A DNA stretch of 64,000 bases from Pseudarthrobacter siccitolerans. GTDB lineage: Bacteria; Actinomycetota; Actinomycetes; Actinomycetales; Micrococcaceae. The stretch spans positions 992,001 through 1,056,000 of the forward strand of contig NZ_JAUSXB010000001.1 of the NCBI RefSeq assembly GCF_030823375.1, written 5' to 3'. A program made the position numbers and the translations under genes. Below, one piece after another: positions 14,931 through 54,896 of the stretch. The notes beneath the pieces were generated by a model that was not told the origin of the DNA, did no database searches, and saw only the letters and a program-made list of their open reading frames with translations. Position 1 is the stretch's first letter, and every line of letters begins with the position of its first letter.

Positions 14931-15059
14931 AATTGGGCCGTTGTCCCCTGCGCCACAGGCAATCCACAGGAAATATCCAAGCCAGTTGCAAGGCTGAACC
15001 AATACGCTGGATTCATCGTTGACACCAGCGTAGGTACTGCCACCAGACACTTAACCGAA

Positions 15060-15548
15060 ATGAGAGCCTTGATGAGACAGTCAGTCCGCAAGAGTGTTTT
15101 CGCCGGAATCGCCGGCCTGTCCCTCGCTGGAACCGTGGCCGGCTGCGCGCCTTCCGCCGCCGACAGCGCCCCGGGTGCCCCGGCGAAAAGCGCAGCGGAA
15201 ACTGCTGCCGCCAACCCGACAGCAGCCACGTCGTCGCTGGCCGGCAGCGGTTCCACCTACAAGGACGGGACGTACAGTGCGGACGGAAGCTACGTTTCCC
15301 CCAACGGATCGGAGACGGTCGGGGTGGAACTTACGCTGGCCGGAGGCACGGTCACGGGCGTCAACATCACCCAGCATCCCTCCAGCCCGAACACCCGCAA
15401 GTTCCAGGGGGAATTCGCCGGCGGCATAGCGGCGCAGATCGTGGGCAAGAGCATCGACGAACTCAACGTCTCCAAAGTTGCCGGCTCCTCCCTGACCAGC
15501 GGCGGGTTCAACCAGGCCGTGGAAAAGATCAAGCAGGAGGCGCAGTAG
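15060..15548 (+). CDS. FMN-binding domain lipoprotein
   Basis: This is probably an exported lipoprotein carrying a covalently bound flavin. Residues 1-29 are a signal peptide with a lipobox AGTVAGC; a Ser/Ala/Thr linker follows to about 60, and the rest is an FMN-binding (FMN_bind) domain. Near the C-terminus the motif SSLTSGGFNQAV resembles the Ser/Thr site to which ApbE attaches FMN. It is first in a three-gene operon, three bases upstream of apbE, whose product is the flavin-attaching enzyme. A second ATG four codons in (15072) has a better ribosome site. No twin-arginine motif is present. Confidence 0.88.
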   Translation: MRALMRQSVRKSVFAGIAGLSLAGTVAGCAPSAADSAPGAPAKSAAETAAANPTAATSSLAGSGSTYKDGTYSADGSYVSPNGSETVGVELTLAGGTVTGVNITQHPSSPNTRKFQGEFAGGIAAQIVGKSIDELNVSKVAGSSLTSGGFNQAVEKIKQEAQ

Positions 15549-15551
15549 AAG

Positions 15552-16424
15552 GTGCCGGACGGGGACTGGGAGGACTTTGCGTTCGAGGGGATCGGAACGC
15601 AGTGGGAGATCTCCACGCCGGTTCCGCTGAGCGCGCCGGTCAGGACGCGCCTGCTGGAACGGGTGGAGCGTTTCGACGCCGAGTGGTCCCGTTTCCGCTC
15701 GGATTCCCGCGTCAGCGCTCTCGCCCGCAGGCCGGGACGTTATGAGTTTGCCGATGAGGCGCAGCAGCTTGGCGCTCTGTACCGAACGCTGTACGGCATG
15801 ACTGACGGCGCCATGACGCCACTGATCGGGGCTTCCCTGGAACGGCTGGGGTACGACCCCGGCTACTCCCTTAAGCCCTCCGGTTCCCCGCTGGCGGCGC
15901 CGGCCTGGGACGAGGTCCTGGACTGGTCCGGCACCACCATCACCACCACGGCTCCGGTGGTGCTCGATATAGGGGCGGCGGGCAAGGGCCTGCTGGTTGA
16001 CCTGCTCGCGGAGGAGCTGGGTGCCGGGGGCCTGGAAGCGTTTGTCATCGATGCCAGTGGCGACCTGCTGGTCCGCGGTCCGCTGCCCACCGAAGTGGCC
16101 TTGGAACATCCCTACAATCCCACCCAGGCCATTGGGATTGTTCCCCTGGACGGCCAGTCGCTGTGCGCCTCTGCTTCCAACCGCCGCGCCTGGGGTGACG
16201 GACTGCACCACGTGCTGGACGGAACTACCGGGCAACCGGTGGGGACCGCCGTCGCCACCTGGGCCCTGGCGGATACTGCGATGCTGGCCGACGCACTGGC
16301 CACCGCCCTTTTCTTTGTCCCCGGTGACCAGCTCCAGGAAGAATTCGACTTCTCCTGGCTGACCGTGTTTTCCGATGGCAGCGCGGCCCATTCTGCCGCC
16401 TTTGAAGGAACACTGTTCACATGA
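15552..16424 (+). CDS. apbE: FAD:protein FMN transferase (ApbE family)
   Basis: ApbE uses FAD to attach FMN through a phosphoester to Ser/Thr of partner proteins. Recognisable motifs are the N-terminal GTQWEI, FRSDSRVSAL, the conserved DIGAAGKG at 139-146, DASGDLLVRG, and the Mg-binding Asp segment WALADTAMLADALATALF near the C-terminus. The start is GTG at 15552, three bases after the lipoprotein gene. Unusually for an ApbE whose likely substrate is exported, no signal peptide or lipobox can be seen, so it may act in the cytoplasm. Its stop overlaps the next start by four bases (ATGA). Confidence 0.93.
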   Translation: MPDGDWEDFAFEGIGTQWEISTPVPLSAPVRTRLLERVERFDAEWSRFRSDSRVSALARRPGRYEFADEAQQLGALYRTLYGMTDGAMTPLIGASLERLGYDPGYSLKPSGSPLAAPAWDEVLDWSGTTITTTAPVVLDIGAAGKGLLVDLLAEELGAGGLEAFVIDASGDLLVRGPLPTEVALEHPYNPTQAIGIVPLDGQSLCASASNRRAWGDGLHHVLDGTTGQPVGTAVATWALADTAMLADALATALFFVPGDQLQEEFDFSWLTVFSDGSAAHSAAFEGTLFT

Positions 16425-17965
16425 GCCCTGTCGAAACGCCAAAAGCCGGCTCCGTCCCCTCCGTGGCCGGCCGGCTGGACACTCTCCTTGGCCGGTTCAC
16501 CATGTACCGGCTGATCCTCCTGGTCCTGGCGGCCCTTGCCGCCTACAGCCTGCTGCTCGACGCCCTTGGCTGGCTGACTTTCGGCATTCCCGAAATGCTC
16601 GGGCACCTGGCCCTGTGCCTTGGGCTGACGTACGCCTCGAACAGGGCACTGGCAGCGCTGTTCCACGTGCGGCCCCACTCGGAGTCCTCGCTGATCACCG
16701 GCCTGCTGCTGTATTTCCTGTTCTGGCCTTCCTTCGTGCCCATGGATGTGGCGGGCGTGGCGCTGGCCTGCGTGCTGGCGTCGGCGTCGAAGTACGCACT
16801 GGCGTGGCGGGGCCGCCATATCTTCAATCCCGCTGCTGCCGGCGCCTTCGCGGCCGGGCTCACGGGTCTCAACATTGCCACCTGGTGGGCGGCCACGCCT
16901 GCCATGCTGTGGCTGCTGGTTCCGGGTGTCCTCCTGGTCCTGTACCGCACCCGGAAGTTGCTGATGGCTGCGGTTTTCCTGGTGGTGGCGTGCGCGATCA
17001 TCAGCGCGGAGCTGCTCGAGGCCGGCATGTCCGCGGGAACGGCGTTGTGGCAGGCTCTTGCCCAGCGGCCGCTGCTGTTTTTTGTGGGGTTTATGCTCAC
17101 CGAGCCGCTGACGCTGCCGCCGCGCAGGTGGCAGCAACTGGGGTTGGCGGCTGTGGTGGGTGTGGTCTTTGCTGTCCCCTACAACTTCGGTTTCCTGGCG
17201 AATTCACCCGAGGCTGCGCTGCTGCTCGGCAATCTGCTCGCCTTTATGGCGGGCCAGAGGGGCAGCGTGCGGTTGAGGTTCACCGGGACGCGGCCGCTGA
17301 CACCCAGCACCACCGAGTTCTCCTTCGAGCCCTCCCGCCCTGTCCGTTTCCTGCCGGGGCAGTACATGGAGCTGGACCTTCCGCATGACAAGGCGGATGG
17401 CAAAGGACGACGGCGGGTGTTCAGTCTGACGGGCTCGCCTGGTGAAAGCCAGGTGAAGTTCGGTGTGCGGACCGCCGGGCCCGTTTCCGCCGCCAAAAGC
17501 GTCCTCCTCTCGTTGAAGCCCGGCGACGAGGTAACGGCCACCTCGGTGGGCGGTGACTTTGTCCTCCCCCGCGGCTCCCGCAAGCCAGTCCTGCTGATCG
17601 CCGCCGGGATCGGCATCACGCCTTTCCTCTCGCACATCTCCTCCGGAAGCCTCCGGGATCGCGACACTGTCCTCCTCCTGCTCGCCAGGAGTGCCGATGA
17701 GGTTGCCTACGCTGAGGAACTGAAGTCCGCCGGCATCCGTGTGGCGGCCCTGATCGCGGACGGATCGGAGCCGCCGCCGCACATCACGGCGTTCCCGGCG
17801 TACGGGTCCCGGCTGGACGGGGACGCCCTTAAGGCAGTGGTCCCCGACGTCGCTGACCGCGAGGTTTATGTTTCGGGTTCACCGGCCAGTGTCGCTTCTT
17901 TGCGGCGCGCGGCGAAGCAGGCCGGGGCACGGCACGTGCATGTCGATTCGTTCTCCGGCTACTGA
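16421..17965 (+). CDS. Membrane NqrB/RnfD-like domain fused to NAD(P)H:flavin (FNR-type) oxidoreductase
   Basis: The protein has a membrane half and a cytoplasmic reductase half. Residues 28-280 hold about eight hydrophobic segments with two motifs typical of the NqrB/RnfD family, HIFNPAAAG at 133-141 and MLTEPLTLPP at 225-234. Residues 282-514 form a ferredoxin-reductase fold: GQYMEL and RRVFSLTGSP (331-340) for FAD, AAGIGITPF (394-402) for NAD(P), and a C-terminal HVDSFSGY. There is no iron-sulfur domain. I infer that it takes electrons from NAD(P)H via FAD across the membrane to the flavinylated lipoprotein encoded two genes upstream. The electron acceptor is unknown. Confidence 0.88.
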   Translation: MSPVETPKAGSVPSVAGRLDTLLGRFTMYRLILLVLAALAAYSLLLDALGWLTFGIPEMLGHLALCLGLTYASNRALAALFHVRPHSESSLITGLLLYFLFWPSFVPMDVAGVALACVLASASKYALAWRGRHIFNPAAAGAFAAGLTGLNIATWWAATPAMLWLLVPGVLLVLYRTRKLLMAAVFLVVACAIISAELLEAGMSAGTALWQALAQRPLLFFVGFMLTEPLTLPPRRWQQLGLAAVVGVVFAVPYNFGFLANSPEAALLLGNLLAFMAGQRGSVRLRFTGTRPLTPSTTEFSFEPSRPVRFLPGQYMELDLPHDKADGKGRRRVFSLTGSPGESQVKFGVRTAGPVSAAKSVLLSLKPGDEVTATSVGGDFVLPRGSRKPVLLIAAGIGITPFLSHISSGSLRDRDTVLLLLARSADEVAYAEELKSAGIRVAALIADGSEPPPHITAFPAYGSRLDGDALKAVVPDVADREVYVSGSPASVASLRRAAKQAGARHVHVDSFSGY

Positions 17966-43531: not shown

Positions 43532-44313
43532 TTCCTGTTCTCCTGTTGTTGGCTTTCTGCCGCGTCGGGTGCATCTGCGGCTGTTTTGAATCCGCGCTCG
43601 GCGGCGTATTCCCCGAGCATGTCCCGCAGCATTCTTCGGCCGCGGTGAAGCCTGGACATCACTGTGCCGATAGGGGTGTTCATGATGTCCGAAATTTCCT
43701 TGTAGGCAAACCCTTCAACATCCGCGAAGTACACCGCCAGGCGGAATTCCTCGGGGATGGCCTGAAGGGCGCGTTTGACGTCGGAATCCGGCAGGTGATC
43801 CAGCGCCTCTGCTTCAGCAGAACGCAGCCCGCTGGAGGTGTGCGACTCAGCACGCGCCAACTGCCAGTCCTCGATGGTGTCCGAGTTGGACTGAAGCGGT
43901 TCCCGCTGCCGTTTGCGGTACAGGTTGATATAGGTGTTCGTCAGAATCCGGTACAGCCACGCCTTGAGGTTGGTTCCCGGCTTGTACTGGTGGAACGCAG
44001 AAAAAGCCTTGGTGTAGGCCTCCTGGACAAGGTCCTCCGCGTCAGCCGGGTTCCGGGCCATCCGCATGGCCGCCGAATACAGCTGATCGACGTACTGCAT
44101 GGCGTCGCGTTCAAACCGGACCCGGCGTTCCTCGTCCGATTCCGTGGAAACGTCCACCGCTTCCTCAGCCGCTCCCGCGGGCGGCACAGAGCCTTCCGTT
44201 GGCACGGGGCCTTCCGTTGGCTCTGGCGGCTCGGGCCGGGTATCAGCGCTGCTCTTGGCTTCGTTCTGCGAAGCGTCATACATGGCCGAAACGGCCGGAT
44301 CCAGGGTGCTCAT
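43528..44313 (-). CDS. sigR: RNA polymerase sigma factor SigR/SigH (ECF)
   Basis: An ECF sigma factor for thiol-oxidative stress. Region 2 ([20 protein letters not shown], then [20 protein letters not shown]) and region 4 ([22 protein letters not shown]) are typical of SigR/SigH. I chose ATG at 44313 (261 residues): a TAGACT -10 lies 9-14 bases before it, suggesting a near-leaderless short form. The frame continues upstream, and an in-frame ATG at 44388 downstream of a SigR-type promoter could give a 25-residue longer isoform. Confidence 0.94.
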
Positions 44314-54487: not shown

Positions 54488-54530
54488 CTTTTCGATGAAT
54501 CCAACCTAAAGGATCGACTCATCACAAATG

Positions 54531-54896
54531 TGGAGATGGGGGGAATTGAACCCCCGTCCGATGTCGTGTTGTCAGGGCTTCTCCGGGCGCAGTTTGCGTC
54601 GGACTTTCTCGGCCCCAGCCATGCCGCAAACAGCTGGCTGATCCGGGCCCAGTCATCTAAGAGTCCCGTTCACCCCGATGACGGAGGTGAACAGCAGTGG
54701 CTATCTAAATGACGCCAGGATCCGGGGCGATAGCAACCTCGGGCTGACGGACTGTCTTACTGCTTAGGCAGCAAGAGCGAAGTCAGTGCGCTTAGATTCG
54801 GCACTTATTGGTTTGCAGAAAGCGTTTACGAGATAATTCTGCATCCTCGGCCCGCTTCACCTGTCGCGACTAACATCGTCGAAACCGATCATCCCC
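54531..54896 (-). ncRNA. ssrA: Transfer-messenger RNA (tmRNA)
   Basis: On the minus strand the 5' end GGGGATG pairs with CATCTCC at the 3' end, before a discriminator A, and the 5' segment continues with GATCGGTTTCGAC, the usual start of tmRNA. The T-arm GGGGGTTCAATTCCCCCC is near 54534-54553. The tag frame at 54802-54764 encodes AESKRTDFALAA and a TAA stop. CCA is not encoded. smpB lies 77 bases upstream on the same strand. Confidence 0.95.

Follow-up and report, generated by a model that had tools for sequence, protein, structure and literature searches.

A candidate flavin relay of Pseudarthrobacter siccitolerans with an altered attachment motif, a signal-less ApbE and a putative SigL-like promoter

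The window analysed here is a whole stretch of 64,000 nucleotides from Pseudarthrobacter siccitolerans (contig NZ_JAUSXB010000001.1, positions 992,001 to 1,056,000). Its positions 15072-17965 hold a cassette of three closely packed genes on the plus strand, for a lipoprotein with an FMN_bind domain (FMN, flavin mononucleotide), an ApbE-family transferase, and a fusion of an NqrB/RnfD-like membrane domain with a reductase for flavin adenine dinucleotide (FAD) and NAD(P)H (Table 1). An earlier note, made from the letters of this DNA, had described the same gene content, which our analysis confirms, and its core idea is already in print. The NQR/RNF-like flavinylation system was described from 127 clusters, mainly of Actinobacteria and the Candidate Phyla Radiation (CPR) (Meheust 2021, eLife, PMC8238504), and again in mSystems (Huang 2024, PMC11334425). 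The note mentions neither this earlier work nor a likely control by a sigma factor. Both papers propose that electrons move one way, from NAD(P)H to an extracytosolic FMN-bind protein, and in the parts of them available to us the relay is reported as models, with no experimental function. The path drawn in the earlier note, from NAD(P)H through FAD and the membrane domain to an external FMN, is the one proposed there for such gene sets, and the needed parts are present in the cassette; it is weaker at two points, a lipoprotein without the canonical attachment site and an ApbE without a visible export signal.

Table 1 Features of the cassette in window coordinates
Feature	Position	Strand	Details and basis
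FMN_bind lipoprotein gene	15072..15548	+	158 aa (162 aa if the start is 15060); Pfam PF04205 2.1e-5, lipobox, conservation
ApbE-family FAD:protein FMN transferase gene	15552..16424	+	290 aa; Pfam PF02424 4.4e-34
NqrB/RnfD-like membrane domain of the 514-aa fusion	16421..17260	+	hhalign to RnfD; AlphaFold 2 (AF2) model
FAD/NAD(P)H reductase domain of the fusion	17261..17965	+	domain search, sequence motifs
Predicted extracytoplasmic function (ECF), SigL-like, promoter	14995..15021	+	TGAACC at 14995-15000, 16-nt spacer, CGTTG at 15017-15021; alignment with relatives
Ser140 codon of the lipoprotein, predicted FMN attachment residue	15489..15491	+	alignment, codon checked
Thr159 codon of the fusion	16895..16897	+	opposite the attachment Thr of RnfD (ATPL) in the alignment

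The cassette is old at this site, since argS lies upstream and tRNA-Arg downstream in all 68 fully flanked loci among the 80 near loci (L037-L116); a recent gain within the genus was rejected on the same evidence. The lipoprotein gene stands beside the fusion in 79 of these 80 loci, the single miss being a contig end. The near set was found by exact peptide patterns; in it and in the set L008-L036 a species may appear twice and the loci are related by descent, so that counts over them are not independent. A full-length or near-full-length fusion occurs in 30 of 36 same-genus genomes, a count that includes two split alignments (G016, G011) and one fusion spread over two frames (G030, locus L036). 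Among the 36 searched, G003, G009, G014, G018, G024 and G027 lack such a fusion, and G009 keeps an 85-residue remnant of the cassette (G009:C5:113328-113594). Other signs of decay are an in-frame stop within the fusion of L138 (G309) and a shortened ApbE frame in L064. The 22 sampled genomes from other families of the order gave only reductase-domain matches or none. At greater distance, the membrane-domain profile matches 15 of 296 genomes of the phylum and 33 of 393 of the class (own genome counted in both); 25 of the 34 distant stretches taken from such matches hold all three genes, and the remaining nine hold other NqrB/RnfD relatives with the lipoprotein or ApbE absent. The three-gene set is maintained across actinobacterial families, and wider homologues of the fusion, in a list of the best 120, are named as Actinobacteria and Saccharibacteria, among others.

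When the upstream DNA of the window was aligned with that of 18 relatives, a single conserved intergenic island appeared, TGAACC-N16-CGT[T/C]G, whose TGAACC we take to be part of the SigL consensus. Of 80 near loci that offer 200 nt or more upstream (among 108 with a lipoprotein), 76 carry TGAACC-N16-CGT, the exceptions being L079, L084, L105 and L114; none of 2279 control windows taken from these loci does. The CGT[CT]G form was found in 60 of 105 loci versus 4 of 1934 control windows, and a loose form in 85 of 105 versus 34 of 1934. The spacer carries 1.05 bits of conservation against 0.37 and 0.26 in its flanks, a comparison in which spacer and flanks alone are informative because the rows were chosen in a way that fixes the -35 and CGT columns. 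Across the own genome the loose pattern gave 23 hits versus 10 for a reversed control, and the extended motif TGAACCNWT-N13-CGT gave 4 versus 0. One of these four sites belongs to the cassette and another to the start of an SCO0930-family lipoprotein gene that diverges from an ECF sigma gene; the remaining two fall inside other genes. Distant cassettes have TGAACC-N16-CGT in 1 of 25 (L190, which also has a similar spacer, GCCACGCTGA) and the full CGT[CT]G end in 0 of 25. A looser form occurs in nine of the 25, eight of them in family f24, where six (L175, L176, L177, L179, L180 and L186) carry GGAAC[CT]-N-CGT 69-109 nt upstream of the lipoprotein gene and two have the looser form at the gene start; the f24 sites may be ECF promoters, perhaps of another type.

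The ECF sigma gene divergent from the SCO0930-family gene (L225:2334-2924, minus strand) has M. tuberculosis SigL as its best solved relative (5.4e-31), followed by a 92-aa sigma chain (3e-14) and SigH (1.3e-11). The gene after it encodes a zf-HC2 domain with HLRECAQC, an anti-sigma motif of the HxxxCxxC type; our pattern for this gene required an ATG start and found it in 6 of 30 loci, the anti-sigma of the own genome starting with GTG. On the divergent side, TGAACC-N16-CGT is present at all 30 sigma loci (own genome and 29 relatives), and the site of the sigma gene itself was found in 23 of 30 when sought strictly (27 of 702 control windows also had the strict form) and in 30 of 30 under a relaxed form. 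The L225-type sigma is present with high similarity in 35 of the 36 same-genus genomes, G024 being the exception. The locus thus has the traits of a SigL type, namely a SigL-like sigma, a zinc-finger anti-sigma and TGAACC/CGT promoter sites, and we consider it likely that the cassette promoter would be read by this SigL-like ECF sigma. As a side observation, the stretch L225:1675-3552, with the sigma, its anti-sigma and the divergent SCO0930-family (Lipoprotein_15) lipoprotein between sites on either side, is a possible further link to the relay. In M. tuberculosis, the SigL partner RslA releases zinc upon oxidation (PMC2877774), and growth depends on the Rip1-SigL pathway when iron or zinc is low (PMC10449499), according to the parts of these papers available to us.

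TGAACC-N16-CGT could instead serve another regulator, or another ECF sigma than the SigL-like one, which we regard as possible and somewhat improbable. The own genome has eight PF04542 matches, and promoter sites were sought at five of them (L225-L229). One of these, an ECF sigma open reading frame at L229, has the site 171 nt upstream (L229:1557-1581; G000:C1, about 362056), and the cassette spacer (TACGCTGA) is conserved and unlike the spacers of the sigma loci. Against this stand the hexamer, spacing and CGT at the SigL-like locus, without exception on the divergent side. The RskA-type sigma locus L226 was rejected as the regulator, having no TGAACC-N16-CGT and only a loose GGAACT form about 240 nt before its sigma open reading frame. 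The conserved spacer itself (15001-15016, consensus AtTACGCTGAaTTCAA) is perhaps a second operator. Within the window, a Sigma70_r2 match of 69 bits lies in a 571-aa open frame (G000:C1:1035903-1036097; window 43903-44097, minus strand).

The lipoprotein has the lipobox VAGC with Cys25 at 15144-15146 (by pattern, not SignalP), which provides the lipidation site expected of NQR/RNF-like clusters, and a simple pattern found a lipobox in 77 of 79 relatives. Export by the twin-arginine (Tat) route was rejected, as an R-K pair is present and distant members, read by eye, show no consistent twin arginine. The attachment site of the window lipoprotein reads S-K-V-A-G-S-S-L-T-S, which lacks both the canonical D-x-x-[S/T]-G-A-[S/T] pattern and its Asp; the final Ser of GSS, Ser140, falls opposite the SGAT Thr of the genome's other FMN_bind protein. 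The 79 near loci with a readable lipoprotein (of 80) have AGSS in 72 and SGSS in 7, and over 133 of 134 loci (108 near, 25 far) the motif is AGSSLTS in 114, SGSSLTS in 16, AGSSLTA in 2 and SGATNTS in 1, so that [AS]GSSLT[SA] holds in 132 of 133; G-S-S-L-T is invariant across 31 aligned lipoproteins. Other actinomycete ApbE loci, read by eye, have VSGAT or VTGAT adjacent in 9 of 15, all nine from one large-genome family, and no motif stood out clearly in the other six. In the ApbE review, as far as available to us, the site is given as D-x-x-[S/T]-G-A-[S/T], with Thr favoured over Ser and single changes partly tolerated (PMC12052999).

It is possible, and in our judgement rather unlikely, that this lipoprotein is no longer flavinylated and binds FMN non-covalently or merely docks, with ApbE acting on Thr159 of the fusion or on a protein elsewhere. 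The AGSS in place of [S/T]GA[S/T] with its missing Asp would fit such a loss, as would the alignment of Thr159 with the attachment Thr of RnfD and the second ApbE with an SGAT partner in the same genome. The invariance of G-S-S-L-T and an ApbE clade that follows the motif argue the other way, and Thr159 is not kept across the wider family. In a K. pneumoniae model, moreover, single motif changes mostly lowered flavinylation and did not abolish it, loss of the acceptor residue excepted (PMC12052999, in the part available). With a site of S-K-V-A-G-S-S and an ApbE that shows no export signal, covalent FMN on the exported lipoprotein is less certain than the earlier note made it.

ApbE itself matches ApbE chains in the PDB down to 4.8e-16, and its His220 and Asp247 align with these chains and are invariant in 14 rows, the Ser of the triad being not surely placed. 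A tree was built from 59 ApbE rows picked out of a larger set, with 32 cassette ApbEs out of 134 loci and the remaining ApbEs trimmed by approximate coordinates. In it the 31 ApbEs from GSS cassettes form one clade (support 100/99), whose branch measures 1.21 changes per column. The ApbE of the SGAT cassette (L137), represented by only 30 residues, falls outside it. We read the shared motif and clade as a sign that the enzyme and its substrate changed together. If GSS proteins are served by an ApbE clade of their own, the recognition rule for flavinylated proteins becomes wider, because a search for [S/T]GA[S/T] misses GSS proteins.

The export signal typical of bacterial ApbE is not visible on the cassette ApbEs. 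Hydrophobicity within the first 60 residues of the window ApbE reaches at most 0.32. The median distance between the stop codon of the lipoprotein and the beginning of ApbE homology is 3 nt, with offsets of -23 to +71 nt in 131 of 133 loci and 2625 in L135 and L189. No signal-like stretch precedes this homology in any of the 133 loci: where at least 14 in-frame residues are available, mean hydropathy over 14 residues never exceeds 1.6, and loci with fewer than 14 have no room for a signal. For comparison, a pattern for ApbEs of the deeper phylum caught 12 of 45 loci (coordinates were used instead for 15 loci), and 9 of these 12 have a hydrophobic N-terminus by eye. Since the target is a lipoprotein and the enzyme has no visible signal, the attachment of FMN probably precedes export, or else ApbE is exported by an unrecognised route. 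The second alternative, with ApbE acting outside, seems quite improbable to us. Most studied ApbEs are exported, and the cytosolic example in the review acts on a soluble target (PMC12052999, in the part available); Listeria combines an extracytosolic ApbE-like FmnB with a flavin-trafficking transporter (PMC9973259, likewise). The 133 signal-less loci speak against it, as do 15 other actinomycete ApbE loci, whose printed residues show no signal by eye. That an ApbE with no visible signal has a lipoprotein partner poses the question of where flavinylation takes place in Gram-positive bacteria. The offset in L135 and L189 reflects an insert of about 2.6 kb between the lipoprotein and ApbE genes, which in L135 (L135:2830-5435) was read by eye, with no family search, as a long WXG100-like protein and a small membrane protein. 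An extra gene at this place was rejected as the acceptor, being found in only 2 of 133 loci, with the others within 71 nt.

The membrane half of the fusion aligns with RnfD in hhalign (probability 91.4, E 9.3e-7), and an AF2 model places helices between residues 28 and 279. Its own Pfam score is 20, under the cut-off of 27.7; PF03116 is precomputed for 2 of the best 120 close homologues and for many of the best 120 wider ones. By sequence the membrane half matched no PDB chain at E 10, and a fold comparison was uninformative on it, the match list being filled by the reductase half with its NqrF-like fold. The C-terminal NAD-binding domain PF00175 lies on the same protein, as it does in the best 120 wider homologues, and we read RRRVFSLT, GIGITPF and the C-terminal GY as motifs of an FAD/NAD(P)H reductase. 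Thr159 (WWAATP) aligns with the Thr of RnfD ATPL, with the rest of the attachment motif lost. It is invariant in 37 genus rows, and for the near set this invariance is biased because one of the search peptides, WWAATPAM, spans Thr159. In distant cassettes the residue here is T, S, A, N or K, and the best 120 wider homologues have T 68, N 37, S 13, V 1 and G 1. A second covalent flavin on Thr159 is thus possible in the window protein and would be no family rule; as a conserved second site it was rejected, and it remains as a genus feature only. A NOX-like role, in which the complex reduces oxygen or quinone at the membrane with the lipoprotein as an accessory, is in our view also quite improbable, since the membrane domain matches RnfD, the Pfam scan reported no Ferric_reduct for the fusion (that domain lies in the genome's other flavinylation cluster), and the lipoprotein gene accompanies the fusion in nearly all near loci.

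Taken together, we hold with slightly more confidence than doubt that the cassette is a one-way NQR/RNF-like flavin relay in which ApbE flavinylates Ser140 before export, under the control of a SigL-like ECF sigma. NAD(P)H would reduce FAD in the cytoplasmic reductase domain, and electrons would cross by a flavin held in the fused membrane domain, then reach FMN on the external lipoprotein and finally an acceptor. The dedicated ApbE would attach this FMN to Ser140, most likely in the cytoplasm and prior to export of the lipoprotein. Transcription would start at the promoter read by the SigL-like sigma, and, as its partner is a zinc-finger anti-sigma, the relay would probably be made on envelope redox or metal stress. 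Several observations weigh against this reading. The ApbE motif of the review (PMC12052999) is not matched at the attachment site. No Fe-S or heme domain that could bridge the membrane was found, and the membrane flavin is therefore assumed from NqrB/RnfD. The L225-type sigma is present also in same-genus genomes without the cassette, and L229, preceded by the same site, is another ECF candidate. The exact promoter is a genus feature at most, because the distant cassettes nearly all lack it. Finally, SigL favours CGTG at -10, that is, G at -11 (PMC6372665, in the part available), and the cassette has CGTT, so that the base preferences of the two sigma factors would differ.

A wider reading can be offered only speculatively, and we doubt it more than we believe it: one actinobacterial cytoplasm would use two flavinylation codes, with one ApbE serving the SGAT partners of Ferric_reduct-type reductases and another, diverged ApbE serving the GSS partners of the NqrB-like relay. 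If FMN is attached before export, the flavin-bearing chain would pass the export channel and no FAD exporter would be needed. With an envelope redox or metal sensor of the SigL and anti-sigma type as its switch, the relay would act in repair or metal acquisition and not in respiration. The probable link between the conserved promoter and a SigL-like sigma suggests a definite condition in which to seek the acceptor. Elsewhere in the window, a transfer-messenger RNA lies at 54530-54896 (minus strand), with the tag AESKRTDFALAA.

Among known systems, Na+-NQR and RNF share with the cassette the NqrB/RnfD-like membrane part, an FMN_bind protein as in NqrC/RnfG and the NqrF-like reductase fold, and differ in that Pfam found no ferredoxin domain in the cassette and that the flow here would be one way. 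RnfD (TIGR01946) was not found in the own genome, where other Na+-NQR/RNF subunits were not searched. An MsrQ-like cluster of the same genome (L006:4550-7336; G000:C1, about 2478549-2481335) also combines FMN_bind, ApbE and a membrane reductase with an NAD domain, and its ApbE, the second in the genome, likewise has no visible signal; it differs in its Ferric_reduct membrane domain and its SGAT motif (VSGATIT). The S. pneumoniae NADPH oxidase SpNOX (PDB 8qt6 and others) is unlike the fusion, whose membrane domain matches RnfD, and we know of no flavinylated partner of SpNOX. SigL-RslA of M. tuberculosis is alike in the best solved sigma match, the HxxxCxxC anti-sigma and the CGT of the -10, and unlike in that the predicted regulon member is a flavin relay and the sites found show no preference for G at -11. 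Among open-licence PMC papers, we found only the ApbE review for Arthrobacter with ApbE and FMN-binding, and none for a sigma-factor regulon of ApbE flavinylation, for flavinylation under the label 'NQR RNF-like', or for TGAACC with an ECF sigma factor or with SigL and anti-sigma. The closest counterpart is the NQR/RNF-like system, with the same extracytosolic FMN-bind subunit, ApbE and NqrB/RnfD domain fused to a cytosolic NAD-binding domain, and with similar taxa, Actinobacteria and CPR. The window cassette differs from it in having GSS in place of GA[S/T], an ApbE without a visible export signal, a Thr where Huang reports the NqrB/RnfD flavinylation site to be lost (PMC11334425, in the part available), and a predicted SigL-like ECF control in its genus. 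What the cassette adds to the published system is therefore a changed attachment code linked to an ApbE clade of its own, a signal-less ApbE and a testable link to a sigma factor.

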